NCBI GenBank assembly: GCA_023248635.1
Contig: JAHFED010000040.1
Span: forward strand, 1 to 59,234
DNA from: Myxococcales bacterium
GTDB taxonomy: Bacteria; Myxococcota; UBA727; VGSZ01
Reading direction: 5' to 3'
DNA length: 59,234 nucleotides
Shown here: piece by piece, positions 13,791 through 36,200 of the stretch
Position numbering within the stretch: the first letter of the stretch is position 1
How the letters are laid out: every line of letters starts with the position of its first letter
Notes under the pieces: model-generated
The model's database searches: none
What the model saw: the letters and a program-made list of their open reading frames with translations, nothing else
Told to the model about the DNA's origin: nothing
Made by a program: the position numbers and the translations under genes

Positions 13791-13874
13791 GCATCAGACC
13801 TCCAGAAGAGTATCCCCGACGGAGCGGAACGAGACCGCTCCGCGGTCGAAGTTCAGCGAGATCGGGGATCAGTC
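13789..13874 (-). repeat. 86-bp structured repeat, copy 1
   Basis: Read on the minus strand, the first 48 bases are identical to 58918-58965 and the rest is about 85% similar. It contains two nested stems: outer ATCCCCGA/TCGGGGAT and inner GACCGC/GCGGTC. It then has GGAGGTCTG before an ATG. The repeat begins with the last codon and stop (GAC TGA) of the upstream beta-helix gene. It could be the left end of an insertion sequence, or an independent palindromic element. Confidence 0.8.
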
Positions 13875-14813
13875 GCAGCCGTCTTCGAGGAGCGTAGGTC
13901 GGGCGACGACGACGGCGAAGCCTGCTGGCGCGCAAATGTCGGTGGCGCCCTCGACACAACTGGGACTCGCGGCGCTCGACGGGGGCGCGTGGTCCCAGGC
14001 GTTGTCGGACATCGACAGGGTCCCCGTGAAGCCGGTGATGAGCACGTCGAAGTAGGCGTTGCAGGAGAACACGTTGCCCCCGGCGCTCCGGCCGCCACCG
14101 AGATCGGCGAAGCCGTCACCGCCGAGGCGCATGCCGAAGCCGTTGTCGACGATGACGTTGCCCTCCAAGAGGCTGGTGCCTTCGAGCGCCACGCCGCCGG
14201 CAGTCTGCTCAATCCGATTGCCGAGCAGCGACACGTCCGCCGACGCCTGCGTCAGCCGGACCCCCAGGGCGCAGGGCGTCGGCGATCCATCGCACTCCGA
14301 TCCCACACCGCGCACCGTCGAATTGCGCAGAGTGGGCCCAGCAGCGGCCAACAGGACGACGGAGGCCTGGGTGGTGACGGCGGCGCTCATCAGCGTGAGC
14401 CCCCCAACGACTGCATCGTCAGCGAGCTGGACCGTGACGGCGGCGGCGTCGGCGACGGGGGCGAGCTGGGAGACGATCGTCGACGCACCCAGCGTCTCCT
14501 CGTCGCCGAGCAAGGTCACGCCAGCGGGAACCGCGAGGGGGAAAAACTCGCCGGTCGATTCGTCGTAGCTGCCCGGCGCGATCCAGATGAGGCCACAGCC
14601 GGAGGTCCCTAGAGCCTCGGTGATGGTGGTGAATCCCCCGCACGTCGCCGTCGGCGAAACGATGGCGCAGGGGTCGATCCCCGGTGGTGGCGCCGCACAA
14701 ACCGGAGCCTCGGGGGACTCGACGACGACGTCACCAACGGGGATGTTGCCGAGGGGAAAGCTCGCGTCGCAGGCGACGCCCGCACAGAGCAGAGGGAAAA
14801 GGAGAGGGCGCAC
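13869..14813 (-). CDS. Right-handed beta-helix (DUF1565/pectate-lyase-fold) lipoprotein
   Basis: A 314-aa protein with a GTG start, no better start in frame, and a weak ribosome site. The N-terminus MRPLLFPLLCAGVACDASFP has lipobox AGVAC. The fold is suggested by CGGFTTITEALGTSGCGLIW, then IAPGSYDES and repeated GGLTLMSAAV, GNRIEQTAGG, GNVIVDNGFG and GNVFSC rungs, as in DUF1565 and parallel beta-helix proteins. Several Cys residues are spaced through it. A surface or periplasmic polysaccharide-binding role is possible; no catalytic residues were assigned. Its last codon and stop belong to the 86-bp repeat, so the C-terminus may have been trimmed. Confidence 0.7.
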   Translation of the reverse strand: MRPLLFPLLCAGVACDASFPLGNIPVGDVVVESPEAPVCAAPPPGIDPCAIVSPTATCGGFTTITEALGTSGCGLIWIAPGSYDESTGEFFPLAVPAGVTLLGDEETLGASTIVSQLAPVADAAAVTVQLADDAVVGGLTLMSAAVTTQASVVLLAAAGPTLRNSTVRGVGSECDGSPTPCALGVRLTQASADVSLLGNRIEQTAGGVALEGTSLLEGNVIVDNGFGMRLGGDGFADLGGGRSAGGNVFSCNAYFDVLITGFTGTLSMSDNAWDHAPPSSAASPSCVEGATDICAPAGFAVVVARPTLLEDGCD

Positions 14814-14969: not shown

Positions 14970-15320
14970 TCAAGACGCCGGGGTGTCTTGAATGTCGACG
15001 GTGAGCAGCGTGTGCAGCCGCCGGAGCGACGTGATCGTCTTGCGCTGCCAGGCGATGGACTCCGCCCCCAGAATTCGCAGGGGAAGATCGAGCTTGCGCG
15101 CCGCCAGCACCAAGCGGGACAGGGCCGTGATCCCGGAGCTGTTCATGAAGTTCAACCCGCGGATGTCGACGACGTAGGTCGTCTTGCAGGCGATCATGGC
15201 GTCGTGGATGGGATTGAAGATGCGCTCATAGGCGCCGGGCGTGGCCAGGCGAAGTACCCCGGTCATCGTACAGCCGGCGGCGGTGTTTTCGATGCGGTGG
15301 TCGGCGTCCTCCATGTTCAT
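14970..15320 (-). CDS. STAS-domain anti-sigma-factor-antagonist-like protein (slr1659-type)
   Basis: A 116-aa single STAS domain. The conserved loop YVVDIRGLNFMNSSGITALS carries the Ser (in NSSG) that is phosphorylated in SpoIIAA/RsbV-type antagonists. The ATG at 15320 overlaps the stop of the HATPase gene (ATGA), so they are translationally coupled. In partner switching the unphosphorylated STAS protein binds a target and the HATPase kinase inactivates it. Here it is the last gene of the six-gene operon. The target is unknown. The pair resembles the Slr1658/Slr1659 pair of cyanobacteria (recalled, not searched). Confidence 0.85.
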   Translation of the reverse strand: MNMEDADHRIENTAAGCTMTGVLRLATPGAYERIFNPIHDAMIACKTTYVVDIRGLNFMNSSGITALSRLVLAARKLDLPLRILGAESIAWQRKTITSLRRLHTLLTVDIQDTPAS

Positions 15321-15880
15321 GACTGATCGACCTCGTTGGCGTTCAGGGTCACGCGGACCCGGACCTCGTGGGCATCCCCGACCTCGAGCGGGCGGATGCT
15401 GACCGCCAGATTCGAGTTGTGATCCTTCACCATGGTGATCAGGCCGAGCCCGGATTCACTCCGGTTGGTGGCCGCGTTCTGCTCGATCTGGGCGATGAAC
15501 AGGTCTTCGATGTCTTCACTGCCGAGGCGCTGCAGAAAGCTGTCGAAGCGTTGGGTGATGGCGCCGGAGCAGGTGTTGCAGGTCTCGATGCGGATGGTGT
15601 CCCCGAAGTGGTCGAAGGAGAGGACCACCGGCTCGCGCTTGTTGGCGCTGAACTTCACCGCGTTCTCCAACAGCTCGTTGATCACCGTCGAAAGCGTGTT
15701 CAGCGCTGCCTTGGGGTTCTCGAAGGCGTAGGCGATGAAGTAGGCGAGAAAGTCGGCGGTCATCCCGCAGCGCTTCCAATGGGCGATCAGATCGAGGGGC
15801 GTGAACTTCACCTCGAACTTCGACAGTGGCGGCTCGACTGCAGCGCCGTCGAAGACGCCGTGGATGCGGGAGATGCTCAA
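15317..15880 (-). CDS. HATPase_c regulatory kinase-like protein (slr1658-type)
   Basis: A 187-aa protein. The N-box is STVINELLENAVKFSANKRE and the G-box is ESGLGLITMVKDHNSNLAVS, with a polar N-terminal domain of about 60 residues. This is a GHKL ATP-binding fold of the RsbW/SpoIIAB class, expected to phosphorylate the STAS protein encoded next. The likely start is a TTG at 15880 that overlaps the TGA of the GNAT gene (TTGA); no ATG fits. A longer frame upstream lies inside the GNAT gene. The use of TTG plus coupling suggests low, tied expression. Confidence 0.8.
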   Translation of the reverse strand: MSISRIHGVFDGAAVEPPLSKFEVKFTPLDLIAHWKRCGMTADFLAYFIAYAFENPKAALNTLSTVINELLENAVKFSANKREPVVLSFDHFGDTIRIETCNTCSGAITQRFDSFLQRLGSEDIEDLFIAQIEQNAATNRSESGLGLITMVKDHNSNLAVSIRPLEVGDAHEVRVRVTLNANEVDQS

Positions 15881-16524
15881 CGTTCCTCCAGCGTCAGCGC
15901 GCACGGCAACGGTTTGTTCCAAATGGCCGGTGGGATGTCGACGGTCGGGATGATCAAGCGGCTGTCCATCGGGTTGTCTGCGGAGCGATAGCGTTCGTGC
16001 ACGGGGTAGTCGGGAAATTTTCGCAGCGGCCTGGCTCGGATGCCCGATGCCTCGTGCATCGCGGCAAAGATCGATCGAGTGGCGCAGCATAAGATCAGCG
16101 GCGGTTTTTCGTCACCGCGCATGACGAAGGCCGCGCTGTGGGCGGCCTGAAACAGCCACCGACCCAGGCCTCGGCCGTTGTAGTCGCTGCGGATGACCAG
16201 CTTGGTGACCTCGACGGTGCGGCGCACGTCGTAGCGAGCCTCGAGCCCTTCGCTCGCCAGCTGCTGCTGCAGGTCATCCTTGGTGACCTCGCCGTAGCGC
16301 TCGCAGTAGGTGTCGCGGGTGTACAACCCGCAGGCGGCGACGACCTCGCTGCCGACGGTGCCCAACAGGTAGCTCTGCGGGTAGGGTTCGATGCCGGAGT
16401 TCAGATCGACGATGTCGTTGGAGAAGAGGATCCCGTAGTTCTGGTGGTACATGTCGACGATGAGGTACTGCGCCCTCATCACGTCGCCGTTGCGCACGGC
16501 CACCCGCAGCTCGACACTCTTCAT
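15877..16524 (-). CDS. GNAT-superfamily acyltransferase in signalling operon
   Basis: A 215-aa protein with motif A VTKLVIRSDYNGRGLGRWLF at about residues 105-124, where RxxGxG binds the acyl-CoA pyrophosphate. The N-terminus (MRAQYLIVDMYHQNYGILFS) and length resemble the acyl-homoserine-lactone-synthase/FeeM-like part of the superfamily more than small acetyltransferases. The acceptor is unknown. The ATG at 16524 overlaps the ThiF-like gene stop (ATGA) and the 3' end overlaps the kinase start. It could modify a protein or small molecule as the output or input of the circuit. Confidence 0.75.
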   Translation of the reverse strand: MKSVELRVAVRNGDVMRAQYLIVDMYHQNYGILFSNDIVDLNSGIEPYPQSYLLGTVGSEVVAACGLYTRDTYCERYGEVTKDDLQQQLASEGLEARYDVRRTVEVTKLVIRSDYNGRGLGRWLFQAAHSAAFVMRGDEKPPLILCCATRSIFAAMHEASGIRARPLRKFPDYPVHERYRSADNPMDSRLIIPTVDIPPAIWNKPLPCALTLEER

Positions 16525-17618
16525 GGCGCTCCGTTGGCGACAAGTTTGTCGAGGTCGATGCGAAAACGACCACTGCGGGTCAGCCGGCCCAGCAGCACCT
16601 CCCGCGTCGCGTGCGCGACCAGGGCCGCCCCCAGGTGCACGTCACTTGAGAGTTGGGGATAGGAGCAGAGCTCGGAGTTGATCTTCGCGATCGACGCCCG
16701 CAACGGCCCCGAGACCTCATCGGCACCGCCCAGAAAACGATAGAAGACATTCAGGCGCTCCGACGGGGGCAGGGCAGCGGCTCCGGCGGCGTCGAGGTCT
16801 CCCATCAGGCCGTGGAGCAGCGGACGATCGGGTTCCAAGTCGAAGCGTTCGACGTCCAGGGTACCGCGGTCGTTGGTGTCCATCACGACGGGGATCCGCC
16901 GCTTCCGACACAGCTCCCGGATGCGGAGCTTCATCGGCAAGGTGTCGCACTCCTCGACCACGAGATCGAGGCCGTCGACGAAGGCGCCGGCGTTGGCTTC
17001 GGTGATGCCTTCGGGAAAGGTCAGCACGCGAACGTAGGGATCGATCTCGGCGACCTCTCTGCGCGTCACGTCCACTTTGGTGGCCCCGAGGTGGAGCACC
17101 GTCGTTCGCAACCGGTTGAGGTTCGAGAGCTCGATGGTGTCGAAATCCGCCACGCGCAGCTCGGCGCACAGACCCTCTTGCGCGAGCACCAGCGCTGAGG
17201 CGTGTCCCACCGACAACCCGACGACGCCGATGCGGCGGGTCAGCAGGGAGCGCTGCTCGGCCACGGTGATCTTGTCGCGGTTCCGGTTCGTTCGAACCTC
17301 GCGGAAGGCGTCGCGCGGCAGGACGTGAGCCAACGCCCGTCGCCAGGGAAAGAACACCCAGCTGCCATGAGCAAAGGAGCCGTGTCCTCCCAGCGCCGCA
17401 GCAATCGCCGCCCGGTGCTCGCTGCCACCACGCTCGGTGGATGGCTGCCGCACCCGGGCCCACTCCAGCAGCTGCGCATCGATGGTGTCCACAACCTTGA
17501 GCCGCGCGGTCTCAACGAGGGCCTCGAGCTCGGCGCGGTCGGCGTCGGCAAGTTGCAAGCAGAGGTGCTGGTCATCGCCAGACGCCAGCGCTTCTCGCAG
17601 CACGCTCAGGACGCTCAT
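16521..17618 (-). CDS. E1/ThiF-like adenylyltransferase in signalling operon
   Basis: A 365-aa protein. Residues 1-115 are an unrecognised N-terminal domain. The Rossmann ATP site follows (IGVVGLSVGHASALVLAQEG), then ADFDTIELSNLNR, LGATKVDVTRREVAEIDPYV and LVVEECDTLPMKLRIRELC. These are the ordered motifs of the ThiF/MoeB/E1 adenylation domain, with GLSVGH in place of GxGGxG. No CxxC zinc pairs are seen. A C-terminal catalytic Cys is not obvious, although ELCRKRR and ELCSYPQ contain Cys. Such domains adenylate a protein C-terminus or a carboxylate. It overlaps both neighbours by ATGA. It resembles the ThiF half of Rv1355c-like proteins (recalled). Confidence 0.8.
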   Translation of the reverse strand: MSVLSVLREALASGDDQHLCLQLADADRAELEALVETARLKVVDTIDAQLLEWARVRQPSTERGGSEHRAAIAAALGGHGSFAHGSWVFFPWRRALAHVLPRDAFREVRTNRNRDKITVAEQRSLLTRRIGVVGLSVGHASALVLAQEGLCAELRVADFDTIELSNLNRLRTTVLHLGATKVDVTRREVAEIDPYVRVLTFPEGITEANAGAFVDGLDLVVEECDTLPMKLRIRELCRKRRIPVVMDTNDRGTLDVERFDLEPDRPLLHGLMGDLDAAGAAALPPSERLNVFYRFLGGADEVSGPLRASIAKINSELCSYPQLSSDVHLGAALVAHATREVLLGRLTRSGRFRIDLDKLVANGAP

Positions 17619-18991
17619 GCCGTGGCCCGCACCAGCAAGAAGGTCACGTCGTCGTGGTAGACGCCGCCCGTGAAGGTCTGGAGGTCTTCGACCAGCCTCT
17701 CCTTGATGCGCGCTACGGGTTCGCTCGCATGCGCTTTCAAGAACTCCACCACCCGCCCCTCCTCGAACATCCCCTTCTTGTAGTCGCCGCCGGCTGCGGC
17801 TTCGGTGATGCCATCAGTGCTCAGCAGCAGCAGATCCCCGTCGCCCAAGTTTAGCATCTCTTCGCCGAAGTCCTTGAGGTCGAACTCGTTCAGCAGCCCC
17901 AGGCCATGAGGGACTTGCTCGACGTGCACGATGTCCACGTGTTTGGTCGCTGCCCGGTACACGTAGATGTCGTCGTGCATTCCTGAGAAGCGGAACTGAC
18001 GCGAGTTGCCCTGTCGGCACAGCGCGATGATGGTCATCGTTCGGTCGTCGCACAGGCGCTGCAGGTTCTCGTGCAGGATGGCGTTGGCGAGGTGATTCAG
18101 CTCGCCCGGCGTGATGTCGGCGCGGGTGTGGAGGATCGAGGTGATGATGCTCTGGGCCATCAGCATCACCAGCCCGCTCGACAAGCCGTGGCCGGTGACG
18201 TCGCCGAGCAGGATCCAGCTGTAGTCCCCGATCTCGTAGACGTCGTAGTAATCGCCGCCGACTTCGTCTGCGGGCTTCATGTATGCCGCCAGCTCAAGGC
18301 CGCTGAGCTTGGGATTCGAGGGCAGGATCTTCGTTTGGATGCGATGGGCCACCGACATCTCGGCCTGGAAGCGCGTCTGCTTCTCGGTGACGATCTCCAG
18401 CACCACCGCCGGCGCGAAGACCGAGAGCCCAAAGACGATGAGGATGGCGATGGTGAAGCCGATGGGGGCAAACCACTCCACCATGCGCAAGAAGGGGAAG
18501 TCGGCGGTGTGCACGACGAAGAACACGCTGCTCACCAAGAGCCCACGCATTGAAAACGACATGCTCGACAGCGGGATGCTCTGGAGCACTCTGGTCACGA
18601 CGAGAATCAGCGGGAAGCAGCCGCCGAAGGCCACCGGGATGGCGGCGACGGCGAAGCCCGCACCGGTGGTGTGCAGCACGGCAGCCAGCCCCAGGCTGAC
18701 GACGAAGACGGCTGCCATCGGCTTCCATTCGAAGCGCAGACCGAGCACGCGCGCCATGAGCTCCGCGAGTGCGCCGTTGATCAGCACGACGAAGGCGAAG
18801 CCCATCAGGATCTGGCCTTCGCCGGTGCGCAGCGCACCCTGGGCCATCAGCGCGATGAAGGTGCCAACCCAGAGGGCGGTCAGGCTTCGGTGCAGGCTGC
18901 TGCGCTGAATCCACCACTGGATGCCCGACAGCGCTGCGTTCACGAGCACGATGCCCGTGTACAAGACCAGAAGGTTCTCGAGTGTCCCCAC
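17615..18991 (-). CDS. Membrane-anchored SpoIIE-family PP2C phosphatase
   Basis: A 458-aa protein. The N-terminal 205 residues form about seven hydrophobic helices (VLYTGIVLVNAALSGIQWWI first), followed by a short coiled linker (VLEIVTEKQTRFQAEMSVAH). The PP2C domain then has DEVGGDYYDV, LLGDVTGHGLSSGLVM, LLLLSTDGITEA and HDDVTFLLV, all metal-binding aspartates in place. A GTG at 18991 with GGGAG upstream is chosen; the frame runs further up but into the cyclase gene. It is predicted to dephosphorylate the STAS protein in response to a membrane signal. It overlaps the ThiF-like gene by ATGA. Confidence 0.9.
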   Translation of the reverse strand: MGTLENLLVLYTGIVLVNAALSGIQWWIQRSSLHRSLTALWVGTFIALMAQGALRTGEGQILMGFAFVVLINGALAELMARVLGLRFEWKPMAAVFVVSLGLAAVLHTTGAGFAVAAIPVAFGGCFPLILVVTRVLQSIPLSSMSFSMRGLLVSSVFFVVHTADFPFLRMVEWFAPIGFTIAILIVFGLSVFAPAVVLEIVTEKQTRFQAEMSVAHRIQTKILPSNPKLSGLELAAYMKPADEVGGDYYDVYEIGDYSWILLGDVTGHGLSSGLVMLMAQSIITSILHTRADITPGELNHLANAILHENLQRLCDDRTMTIIALCRQGNSRQFRFSGMHDDIYVYRAATKHVDIVHVEQVPHGLGLLNEFDLKDFGEEMLNLGDGDLLLLSTDGITEAAAGGDYKKGMFEEGRVVEFLKAHASEPVARIKERLVEDLQTFTGGVYHDDVTFLLVRATA

Positions 18992-19038
18992 CAGCAGCTC
19001 CCGCCCGCCCCTGCAGATGCAGGCAAGGCGCCCGCACC

Positions 19039-20223
19039 CTACGAGATCGTCCGCGCACCCGCCAATTTCGTCGTCGTCGCTCGCTTGAACTCCGAGAGCC
19101 ACCGTGCGGCTGCCGGCGGCAGGGAGGTGAAGTGGACGCGGAAGGTGTCAGCCTCTGCGCTCACGACCTTGCCGTACCCCTCTCCCAGGCCGGCGTCGTC
19201 GAAGGTGAGCTTGAGGTTGGATCGCACAGCTGGCGGTTGGTCGAAACGAAACAGAGCCTCCTTGTCTCCCAGCGCGAGCAGCATCGCCGCCACGACCTCT
19301 CCGCCAGCATCTTTTCCATCGATCAGCGACATCCCGACCAGGGGTCCTTCCACGATTGGGGTGAGCTCTTCGTCGACGGTGGGCAGCATGCGACTGCCCA
19401 GGCCGGCGACGTCGTAGATGGTGACGGCATGCCTGACGCCCTTCGGATTCACTTTGAAGGTGCTGCGGGCGTGCAACTGCTCATCGAGATCGCCTGCAGT
19501 GCTCTCGCTGATCAGCACCTGCCCGCCGATGGTGTACGACTCGATGCGGCTGGTGAGGTTCACGGCCGAACCAACGAGACCGAACTTCGCCCGCCGCTCG
19601 GAGCCGACGTTGCCGACGACGACTTCGCCGGTGTGCAGACCGATGCCCATCTGGACCTGGGGCAAGCCCTCGGCCGCCAGCTGCTCGTTGACGCGCGTCA
19701 TGGCGAGCTGCATTTCCAAGGCGCACTGCACTGCGTGGGCAGCTGCGCGCGGGGCGACCAAGGGCGCGCCAAACACCGCGAGGATGGCGTCGCCGATGAA
19801 CTCGTTGATCCAGCCGCCGTGGCGCGCGATCACCTCGGCCATCTCGCCCAGATAGACGTTGAGGGTGCGCACGGTCTGCTCCGGCGTCAGCCGCTCGCAC
19901 ATCGGAGTGAACCCGCGGAGATCGCTCATCATGATGGTTACGCGTCGGCGCTCGCCCCCCAGAGCGAAGTTCTCGGGGCTGTCGATGAGCACGGCGGCGA
20001 CCTCATCGGTCATGTAGCGACCGAACACCTTTCGGAGCAGCCGGTTGCGCACGTCGAGGTCCCGCGCGAGCTCGGCGATCTCTGCGAGCTTCTGTTCGAG
20101 CGCGGCTTCGATGTCGTTGCTGTGCTCGAGGGTGATCTCGTGGATGGTCGTCAGGTCGGCGTAGTCTTGCTGGAGCGCTGTCAATTGACTGCTGAGGTCG
20201 GACGGATCGGTCGGGGTGCTCAC
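19039..20223 (-). CDS. Class III adenylate/guanylate cyclase, first gene of signalling operon
   Basis: A 394-aa soluble protein with a GTG start. Residues 1-70 are a coiled coil. The catalytic domain spans about 85-275, with metal aspartates in MSDLRGFT and FIGDAILAVFG and the transition-state pair in VGSAVNLTSRIESYT. The Lys in RRAKFGLVG suits a purine-specifying position; ATP or GTP cannot be decided. The last 100 residues (FRFDQPPAVRSNLKLTFDDA onward) look like a PilZ-like or other small sensor domain. The gene ends 47 bases before the phosphatase. All catalytic residues appear present. Confidence 0.9.
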   Translation of the reverse strand: MSTPTDPSDLSSQLTALQQDYADLTTIHEITLEHSNDIEAALEQKLAEIAELARDLDVRNRLLRKVFGRYMTDEVAAVLIDSPENFALGGERRRVTIMMSDLRGFTPMCERLTPEQTVRTLNVYLGEMAEVIARHGGWINEFIGDAILAVFGAPLVAPRAAAHAVQCALEMQLAMTRVNEQLAAEGLPQVQMGIGLHTGEVVVGNVGSERRAKFGLVGSAVNLTSRIESYTIGGQVLISESTAGDLDEQLHARSTFKVNPKGVRHAVTIYDVAGLGSRMLPTVDEELTPIVEGPLVGMSLIDGKDAGGEVVAAMLLALGDKEALFRFDQPPAVRSNLKLTFDDAGLGEGYGKVVSAEADTFRVHFTSLPPAAARWLSEFKRATTTKLAGARTIS

Positions 20224-33506: not shown

Positions 33507-33899
33507 TCAGTCGGCCGACGTCGTCGACGCATTGAGCGAGACTTCGTTGCCCACGAGCTCGATGATCGAGATGGGAGCATTGTCGCCCTTGCGAATGCGC
33601 GACTTGGTGACCCGCGTGTAGCCACCCGGGCGGGCCTTGAAGCGGACGGCGATGTCACCAAAGAGCTTGGCGAGGATCTCCTGGTCGCGGATGTCGGCAT
33701 AAGCCTGCCGACGCGCGTGCAGATCACCGCGCTTGGCCAGGGTGATCAACTGCTCGGCAAAGCGGCGCAGCTCCTTGGCCTTGCAATCGGTGGTTTCGAT
33801 CCGCTCGTGGCGAAACAACGACGTCGCCATGTTGCGGAACAGCGCAGTGCGGTGGGCGGATGTGCGGCCGAGTTTCCGGCCTTGGTTCATGTGGCGCAT
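33507..33899 (-). CDS. rplQ: 50S ribosomal protein L17
   Basis: A 130-aa protein starting [20 protein letters not shown], the highly conserved L17 N-terminus, with AGGAG upstream of the ATG. It binds 23S rRNA near the peptide exit tunnel. It is the last gene of the ribosomal protein/rpoA block, as in most bacteria, and is separated from rpoA by 93 bases that hold a hairpin. Length is as expected. Confidence 0.98.
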
Positions 33900-33955
33900 G
33901 GCATCTCCTGCAAATCAGGGCGTCTCCCGACGCCAGAACGAGTCGCAAACAAAGG

Positions 33956-33983
33956 GCGACGGTCCCCAACGAGGAACCGTCGC
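33956..33983 (-). terminator. Hairpin between rpoA and rplQ
   Basis: On the minus strand GCGACGGT (33983-33976) pairs with ACCGTCGC (33963-33956) across a 12-base loop, followed by CCTTTGTTTG. It may terminate part of the rpoA transcripts before rplQ and so set their ratio, or be a processing site. Confidence 0.5.
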
Positions 33984-33992
33984 AAGAAGGGC

Positions 33993-35078
<1,086 letters not shown>

Positions 35079-35206
35079 CGTTTTCTATCCTCTTTTTCGA
35101 GCCCCCTCGAGACACCGCGTCAGGATTGACGCCGAGCCCCACGGGAACAAGCAACAAAAAATCAGTCTCTTCGTTCACCCGGGACAACGCCCCGGGGATT
35201 CAAGGT

Positions 35207-35326
35207 GAAACGCGTCCAAGCGTCGTCTGGCTAGGAGGCTGCGAGCACCGCGCGGAGCGTACTTCCTGTACGTGACCGCGCGGAGCGGAGCGGCCGACAA
35301 CGCCAGGCGGCGTTTGGGCGCGTTTC
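35207..35326 (-). ncRNA. Large structured RNA element between rpsK and rpoA
   Basis: The arms 35207-35231 and 35302-35326 form a 25-bp stem in which every deviation from Watson-Crick pairing is a G-U pair, so pairing seems to be kept by selection. Inside is a second imperfect stem around CGTAC-TTCCT-GTACG flanked by CGCGCGG/CCGCGCG. On the rpsK-rpoA transcript it begins 2 bases after the rpsK stop. It could be an attenuator, a ribosomal-protein binding site or a processing element. It occupies the usual rpsD position. A mobile palindromic repeat is the alternative. Confidence 0.55.
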
Positions 35327-35328
35327 AG

Positions 35329-35712
35329 TTACACCCGGCGGCGCTTGGGGGGTCGGCAGCCATTGTGTGGCACCGGCGTCACGTCGCGGATCAGGGTGAC
35401 GCGCAGGCCGCTCATGGCGATGGCGCGCAGCGCGGACTCACGGCCGCTGCCCGGACCCTTCACGCGCACTTCGAGAGCCTTCATGCCGTTGTCCTGCGCC
35501 TTGCGGCAGGCGTCTTCGGCGGCGACCTGGGCGGCGAAGGGGGTCGACTTGCGCGAACCCTTGAACTGGCGAGCGCCGCACGACGACCACGACACGGCGT
35601 TGCCCTGGGTGTCGGTGATGGTGATGACGGTGTTGTTGAACGAGGCGAAGACGTGAGCGATGCCGATGGCAACGTTCTTCTTGACCTTCTTCTTGCCCTT
35701 GGGAGAAGCCAT
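35329..35712 (-). CDS. rpsK: 30S ribosomal protein S11
   Basis: A 127-aa protein with the conserved core [20 protein letters not shown] and the C-terminal [20 protein letters not shown]. It binds 16S rRNA in the platform near the E site and mRNA. Order rpmJ-rpsM-rpsK is conserved. The spacing to rpsM (107 bases) and to rpoA (250 bases) is much larger than usual for this operon. Confidence 0.98.
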
Positions 35713-35819
35713 TTGCGGTGTCCTGTCTTGCGCCTGATCGGCGCCCGAAAACTGAAAGAGAAAGGGAAGCGGAAGCGATCAACAGCAGAAGAAGACGACG
35801 CTCCTTGTTGCTGTTTTTC

Positions 35820-36200
35820 TCACTTGGGCGCGGCGGCGGGCTTGCGGGCCACGGCCTTGCGCGGACCCTTGCGGGTGCGGGCGTTGGTGTGGGTGCGCTG
35901 GCCGTGCACGGGCAGACCCTTGCGGTGGCGCAGACCGCGGTAGCAGCCGAGGTCCATCAGGCGCTTGATGTTGAGGGCGACGTCGCGGCGCAGGTCGCCT
36001 TCGACCTTGACCGAGGTTTCGAGCACGTCACGGATGCGGGCGATTTCGTCTTCGCCGACGTCGTCGGAGCGCTTTTCCGGATCGACGTTGGCCTTGGTCA
36101 ACACGCGCAGCGAGGTCACGGGGCCGATCCCGTAGACGTAGGTCAGCGCAATACCCATCTTCTTGTTGCGCGGAAGATCGACACCAGAAATACGAGCCAC
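35820..36200 (-). CDS. rpsM: 30S ribosomal protein S13
   Basis: A 126-aa protein starting with GTG after a GGAGG site. [20 protein letters not shown] and [20 protein letters not shown] then [13 protein letters not shown] are diagnostic. S13 lies in the 30S head and contacts tRNA and the 50S subunit. It is preceded by rpmJ after 221 bases, another unusually long spacer. Confidence 0.98.

Follow-up and report, generated by a model that had tools for sequence, protein, structure and literature searches.

The DNA studied here, referred to as the window, is a stretch of 59,234 nucleotides (contig JAHFED010000040.1) from a Myxococcales bacterium, whose 6.5 Mb source assembly (GCA_023248635.1) belongs to the phylum Myxococcota, as does Anaeromyxobacter. 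It harbors a six-gene operon in which the components of a partner switch are combined with genes for a nucleotide cyclase, a ThiF-fold protein and a GNAT-fold acyltransferase. Reading in one direction on the minus strand, from position 20223 to 14970, the operon encodes a class III nucleotide cyclase (394 amino acids; 19039..20223), a membrane SpoIIE/PPM phosphatase (about 458 amino acids; 17615..18991), the ThiF-fold protein (365 amino acids; 16521..17618), the GNAT-fold protein (215 amino acids; 15877..16524), a GHKL serine kinase (15317..15880), and a STAS protein (14970..15320). The cyclase and SpoIIE genes are separated by 47 bases, and the remaining four junctions are exactly 4-base overlaps; coordinates and junctions agree with those given in a preliminary description of the locus. 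The GTG start of the SpoIIE gene at 18991 lines up with the starts of the Anaeromyxobacter SpoIIE genes, and the TTG start of the kinase gene at 15880 is backed by the aligned N termini of the Anaeromyxobacter kinases. The operon is real and not a chance set of open reading frames, because the G+C content at third codon positions is high across all six reading frames, and because five of the six genes have homologues adjoining one another in other genomes. The spacing of the genes suggests that all six are co-transcribed. A scan of the operon for sigma-70-like promoters found none, which is uninformative either way.

The SpoIIE protein (family match 1.8e-32 in the profile search of the operon proteins) consists of a hydrophobic N-terminal half and an intact phosphatase domain, whose metal-binding Asp residues were invariant in the alignment with homologues. 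The kinase was placed in the HATPase/DUF6272 family by profile search and in the slr1658 superfamily with 141 bits, above the cut-off of 100; its N box (E69, N73) and GLG motif are conserved among homologues. The STAS protein matched its Pfam-type family weakly and reached 79.7 bits against the slr1659 superfamily, below the cut-off of 100; one of the Anaeromyxobacter STAS proteins (84.2 bits) also fell short of it. Its NSS(G) and WQ motifs were invariant in the homologue alignment, and the phospho-acceptor serine is expected within N60-S61-S62-G. Judged by their build, the three proteins are a Bgr-type (slr1658/slr1659) partner switch, 'Bgr-type' being used here as a label for this build and not for strict membership of the STAS protein in the slr1659 family. 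The phosphatase would take the role of BgrU or SiaA, the kinase that of BgrW, and the STAS protein that of BgrV.

The nearest experimentally studied system is BgrRSTUWV, which controls mixed-linkage beta-glucan in Sinorhizobium meliloti. In this organism, the phosphatase BgrU and the kinase BgrW set the phosphorylation of the STAS protein BgrV, which in turn determines the activity of the diguanylate cyclase BgrR (PMC7647112; PMC8457831). In both systems, SpoIIE, an slr1658-type kinase and an slr1659-type STAS protein are encoded in one operon that begins with a cyclase gene, ends with the STAS gene and is devoid of a sigma factor gene. Unlike Bgr, the window operon has a class III cyclase in place of the GGDEF-EAL protein, lacks both the second kinase-like gene and the STAS-methyltransferase, and carries the ThiF and GNAT genes between phosphatase and kinase. 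Searches with the window kinase retrieved rhizobial plasmid loci with the order GGDEF-EAL, small kinase-like protein, STAS-methyltransferase, SpoIIE, slr1658 kinase and slr1659 STAS, which from their gene content are probably Bgr loci. Identities between the window and the rhizobial proteins amounted to 34-35% for the SpoIIE domain, 30-34% for the kinase and 29-31% for STAS. In two of these plasmids, the STAS-like domain fused to a class I methyltransferase is encoded directly upstream of SpoIIE (L057 3362-4552 and L056 3386-4558), and its NSS motif is replaced by NNT and NMT, respectively. The SiaABCD system of Pseudomonas aeruginosa likewise comprises a membrane PPM phosphatase, a GHKL kinase and a STAS-like protein whose target enzyme is encoded in the same operon; it differs in having SiaB- and DUF1987-type proteins and a diguanylate cyclase, as opposed to the slr1658/slr1659 types and the enzymes of the window.

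The preliminary description had recognized a partner switch without a sigma factor, and this was borne out by the slr1658 kinase, the slr1659-like STAS protein and SpoIIE, with no sigma factor gene within the operon. Its further proposal, that the switch acts on the operon's own enzymes, is plausible by analogy with the control of BgrR by BgrV and of SiaD by SiaC (PMC7647112; PMC8457831). A conventional switch, in which the protein released by STAS is a sigma factor or another transcription regulator encoded elsewhere and the enzymes are merely its targets or neighbors, was considered unlikely. Kinase/STAS/SpoIIE trios classically act on sigma factors, and loss of Slr1658 alters transcription in Synechocystis (PMC7555055). 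Yet in the window it is enzyme genes, and no sigma factor gene, that lie inside the module, Bgr, the related switch whose target is established, controls an enzyme, and the rhizobial STAS-like domain is fused to a methyltransferase.

The ThiF-fold protein, designated E1-like at the outset, matched the ThiF family with 5.6e-21 in the general profile search. A far better match was obtained for the Rv1355c (TrzS) family (4e-122; 408.8 bits), covering positions 20-340 of the 722 profile positions, compared with 76 bits or less for MoeB, ThiF and other E1 families. The score lies below the cut-off of 476 bits for the Rv1355c family, the protein ending after the cyclase half. According to these profile matches, what had been called E1-like corresponds to the ATP-dependent cyclase half of Rv1355c/TrzS proteins. 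Residues D225, R169 and K181 align with the adenylation residues D130, R73 and K86 of MoeB, and the catalytic Asp, Arg and Lys are thus retained; D225 is invariant in 12 homologues and probably corresponds to D217 of TrzS. In Mycobacterium tuberculosis, Rv1355c (TrzS) is a ThiF-type cyclase fused to a flavin oxidase, which converts N-acyl tryptophan to tryptazolone with consumption of ATP, the N-acyl amino acid being made beforehand by the acyltransferase TrzA (PMC12856293). The TrzAS, TyzACB and OxzAB pathways share with the window operon a GNAT-fold acyltransferase adjoining a ThiF-type cyclase, with a ThiF half of the Rv1355c (TrzS) family. They differ from it in that the window operon is without a flavin oxidase, its acyltransferase cannot be recognized as a FeeM-type enzyme from its sequence, and both enzymes sit within a phosphorylation switch.

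ThiF and GNAT folds are also generally known to serve in protein modification. The ThiF protein could thus be an E1 for an unlinked ubiquitin-like protein or a protein adenylator, with the GNAT acylating a protein, so that the pair modifies a component of the switch. This explanation is very improbable: the ThiF protein contains no CxxC zinc motif (cysteines are present only at positions 20, 151, 224, 237 and 318), profile searches detected no ubiquitin-like or JAB gene within the operon, and the Rv1355c family exceeds all other ThiF families in score by a wide margin. The missing CxxC motif, the missing partner protein and the clear lead of Rv1355c over all other families also led us to reject ubiquitin-like conjugation as the role of the ThiF protein.

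Placement of the fourth protein in the GNAT superfamily was weak by profile search. Its structure was predicted. The AlphaFold2 model, built from four orthologues, reached a predicted local distance difference test (pLDDT) value of 85.5 and a predicted template modeling (pTM) score of 0.81. A Foldseek search with this model returned the N-acyl-homoserine lactone (AHL) synthase LasI first, and BjaI, MesI, EsaI and FeeM within the top nine rows. VIA-align yielded Z values of 13.1 over 166 residues for FeeM, 13.1 over 172 for RpaI and 12.7 over 174 for BjaI. By aligned length, the predicted fold thus appears nearest to AHL synthases and to the N-acyl amino acid synthase FeeM. TyzA, which supplies the acyltransferase step of a proven oxazolone pathway, was likewise reported to be closest to FeeM and BjaI (PMC10404671). 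The model supports, but does not prove, a role similar to that of N-acyl amino acid synthases. Searching plasmids with the window GNAT gave no match, and the profile search revealed one further, distant GNAT (genome G063), located behind glutamate synthase genes and without a switch.

To evaluate the recurrence of the gene combination, 195 Myxococcota genomes were surveyed, Anaeromyxobacter being counted once for lineage statistics. The GNAT was found in five of them, namely the genome of the window and four others, all Anaeromyxobacter. All four Anaeromyxobacter loci feature the order SpoIIE-GNAT-kinase-STAS, with identities to the window proteins of 41-44% (GNAT), 38-40% (full-length copies of SpoIIE) and 33-37% (kinase). 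Each of them also possesses a full TrzS-like ThiF-oxidase gene (835 to 924 bits) starting about 1.2 kb past the STAS gene; in the two loci read in detail, a helix-turn-helix gene and an opposite-strand response-regulator-like gene lie between STAS and TrzS. An independent arrangement was identified in genome G179 (L059 3147-13351), where genes for a flavoprotein, a KAS III-like protein, STAS, kinase, STAS, SpoIIE, a PilZ protein and a full TrzS follow one another. In total, six of the eight genomes carrying an Rv1355c-type gene have it less than 6 kb from an slr1658-like kinase gene. This corresponds to three of five lineages; given the 23 such kinases in 19 genomes, random placement would yield this with a probability of about 2e-7. 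Outside this 6-kb set are genome G193, with a FeeM-MMPL-TrzS cluster in which FeeM scores 117 bits, and genome G018, where TrzS adjoins a relative of the G179 PilZ protein. Such a PilZ relative beside TrzS (L060) hints at control of oxazolone enzymes by cyclic di-GMP.

Beyond the Myxococcota, a plasmid of Streptomyces sp. NBC_01431 (L052 7083-8999) encodes a GNAT domain fused to an Rv1355c-type ThiF that lacks the oxidase half; the next gene, for KAS III, overlaps it. The fusion ties GNAT and Rv1355c-type ThiF to one pathway, and the cluster is possibly an undescribed acyl-amino-acid cyclase cluster. A GNAT beside a lone ThiF in Streptomyces NBC_01471 was discarded, as it proved to be an ordinary Acetyltransf_3 protein and not a member of the window GNAT family.

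The first gene of the operon encodes a protein of the Guanylate_cyc family (match 1e-30). Among natural proteins of solved structure, the best match was Synechocystis Cya2 (2w01; 220 bits), a guanylyl cyclase whose catalytic domain was matched end to end. The window cyclase retains the metal-binding Asp residues and the catalytic VN..R motif, and its purine-specifying sites contain Glu (NEFIGD) and Gly (KFGLVG), as in Cya2, and not the adenylyl pair. In Cya2, the exchange E488K turns the guanylyl into an adenylyl cyclase (PMC5995499). Since Glu and Gly occupy the base-recognition sites as in Cya2, GTP is the likelier substrate and cyclic GMP (cGMP) the likelier product. Unlike Cya2, the window cyclase is without a CHASE2 domain or membrane part, has its own C-terminal region of about 100 amino acids without a known family, and resides in a partner-switch operon. 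A PilZ domain was considered for this C terminus and rejected, as no Pfam match was obtained. The catalytic motifs reported as intact in the preliminary description were all recovered, comprising the SpoIIE Asp residues, the kinase N box and GLG, the STAS NSS(G) and the cyclase metal Asp and VN..R residues, with the addition that the cyclase purine sites are guanylyl-like. The proposal of a cyclic nucleotide as the signal was retained in part: a cyclase is encoded in the operon and cGMP is likelier, but the gene was not found in the Anaeromyxobacter or G179 loci and, being absent from these relatives, does not belong to the conserved core.

The latter loci also bear on the explanation that STAS gates cGMP synthesis as BgrV controls BgrR, with GNAT and ThiF being co-expressed passengers or makers of a ligand sensed by the phosphatase. 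With the cyclase gene at its start and the STAS gene at its end, the window operon resembles the rhizobial ones, which open with GGDEF-EAL and close with STAS. Reported cases of a STAS-type protein controlling a cyclase are BgrV-BgrR, SiaC-SiaD and HsbA-HsbD, and of 15 other Myxococcota switch loci, four have GGDEF genes nearby and one a class III cyclase. However, the Anaeromyxobacter and G179 loci have the switch together with GNAT and/or TrzS and do so without a cyclase, and in the window itself the 47-base gap sets the cyclase apart from the five overlapping genes. Control of the cyclase by the switch is rated as rather unlikely.

Gene order, families, catalytic residues and recurrence were read from the sequence; from these we infer the target of STAS, the substrates, the product, the direction of control and the role of cGMP. 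The interpretation favored here, a moderately probable one, is that the operon represents a Bgr-type partner switch with enzymatic output, coupled to a small-molecule pathway of the N-acyl-amino-acid/oxazolone type. In the proposed mechanism, the membrane SpoIIE phosphatase would sense an envelope or small-molecule signal and dephosphorylate STAS, which the slr1658-type kinase would rephosphorylate. Unphosphorylated STAS would bind and activate (or release) one of the operon's enzymes, with the GNAT as the likeliest candidate. The GNAT is favored as the target since relatives retain no other non-switch gene within the module; the cyclase comes second, by analogy with BgrV-BgrR. The GNAT would acylate an amino acid with a group drawn from coenzyme A or acyl carrier protein, and ring closure to an oxazolone would be catalyzed by the ThiF-type enzyme at the expense of ATP. 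If the last step involves a flavin oxidase, this enzyme would have to be encoded elsewhere in the genome, and cGMP from the Cya2-like cyclase would serve as a second output or as a parallel signal. The more specific version, in which STAS binds the GNAT directly, the rate of N-acyl-amino-acid/oxazolone production follows a signal sensed at the membrane and cGMP is made in parallel, is put forward as possible but doubtful. Compared with the E1-type adenylation and acyl transfer assumed in the preliminary description, the chemistry is better read as ATP-dependent cyclization of an N-acyl amino acid, with a GNAT resembling N-acyl amino acid and AHL synthases.

Several observations weigh against the coupling to an N-acyl-amino-acid/oxazolone pathway. 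Regarding the GNAT, no match to Pfam FeeM (PF21926) and, by hmmsearch, no PDB sequence match were found; it shares 8-15% aligned identity with FeeM and the AHL synthases, and the best generic GNATs reach equal Z values, over about 138 residues. The flavin oxidase half of TrzS is absent from the operon, and the end product may be a saturated oxazolone or another compound. Contig C55 of the same genome encodes a free-standing oxidase of 357 amino acids (L065 251-1321 / L071), matching positions 373-717 of the Rv1355c family with 199.7 bits, which is tentatively regarded as a candidate for the missing TrzS half. It forms a long branch in the FDO tree, and about 5 kb near it are masked as N, so that its operon partners are unreadable. 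In the ThiF tree, the window protein is likewise a long branch and not sister to Anaeromyxobacter; the switch may have acquired ThiF independently in each lineage, in which case the coupling is recurrent and not inherited. None of the GNAT, ThiF or TrzS oxidase genes was found in the 15 other Myxococcota switch loci, where a methyltransferase gene adjoins STAS in at least 11. The enzyme gene seems to be a variable slot in these modules, filled here by the GNAT. Finally, both sister genomes of the genus gave no match for the GNAT, the slr1658 kinase or the Rv1355c-type ThiF, and for this reason the operon is accessory. The expectation that ThiF and GNAT are kept next to the switch accordingly holds for Anaeromyxobacter, with the GNAT between SpoIIE and kinase and a ThiF-oxidase gene close by, but not for the sister genomes.

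Acyl-oxazolones, small molecules with a poorly understood physiological role and control, are a recent discovery in mycobacteria, rhodococci and proteobacteria. The oxazolone-enzyme family is tied to a phosphorylation switch in three Myxococcota lineages, which provides a regulated context with named partners. If STAS indeed gates the GNAT, this would represent a new output class for partner switches and the first dedicated control circuit for oxazolones. The findings also point to a wider rule, according to which slr1658/slr1659-type switches often carry their own enzyme gene (methyltransferase, acyltransferase or cyclase); such a rule would extend the enzymatic outputs beyond cyclic di-GMP synthesis. 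A literature search, whose coverage mostly excluded subscription journals, found no published link between a partner switch and oxazolone enzymes.

Further observations concern neighboring genes and related loci. A module of the order kinase-STAS-methyltransferase-SpoIIE recurs in Myxococcota (L018, L079-L092); its methyltransferase protein of about 480 amino acids is uncharacterized, and GGDEF genes lie near some copies. In two Rhodococcus plasmids (L054 and L068), a GGDEF gene is located close upstream of the Rv1355c-type gene, once more a cyclic-nucleotide enzyme in the vicinity of this family. Within the window, genes resembling rpsM, rpsK, rpoA and rplQ were detected at 33507-36200, where the spacing between rpsK and rpoA is only about 250 bases and leaves no room for rpsD, which usually occupies this position. 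Just downstream of the operon and on the same strand, a DUF1565 protein with a signal-peptide-like N terminus is encoded at window positions 13869-14813.

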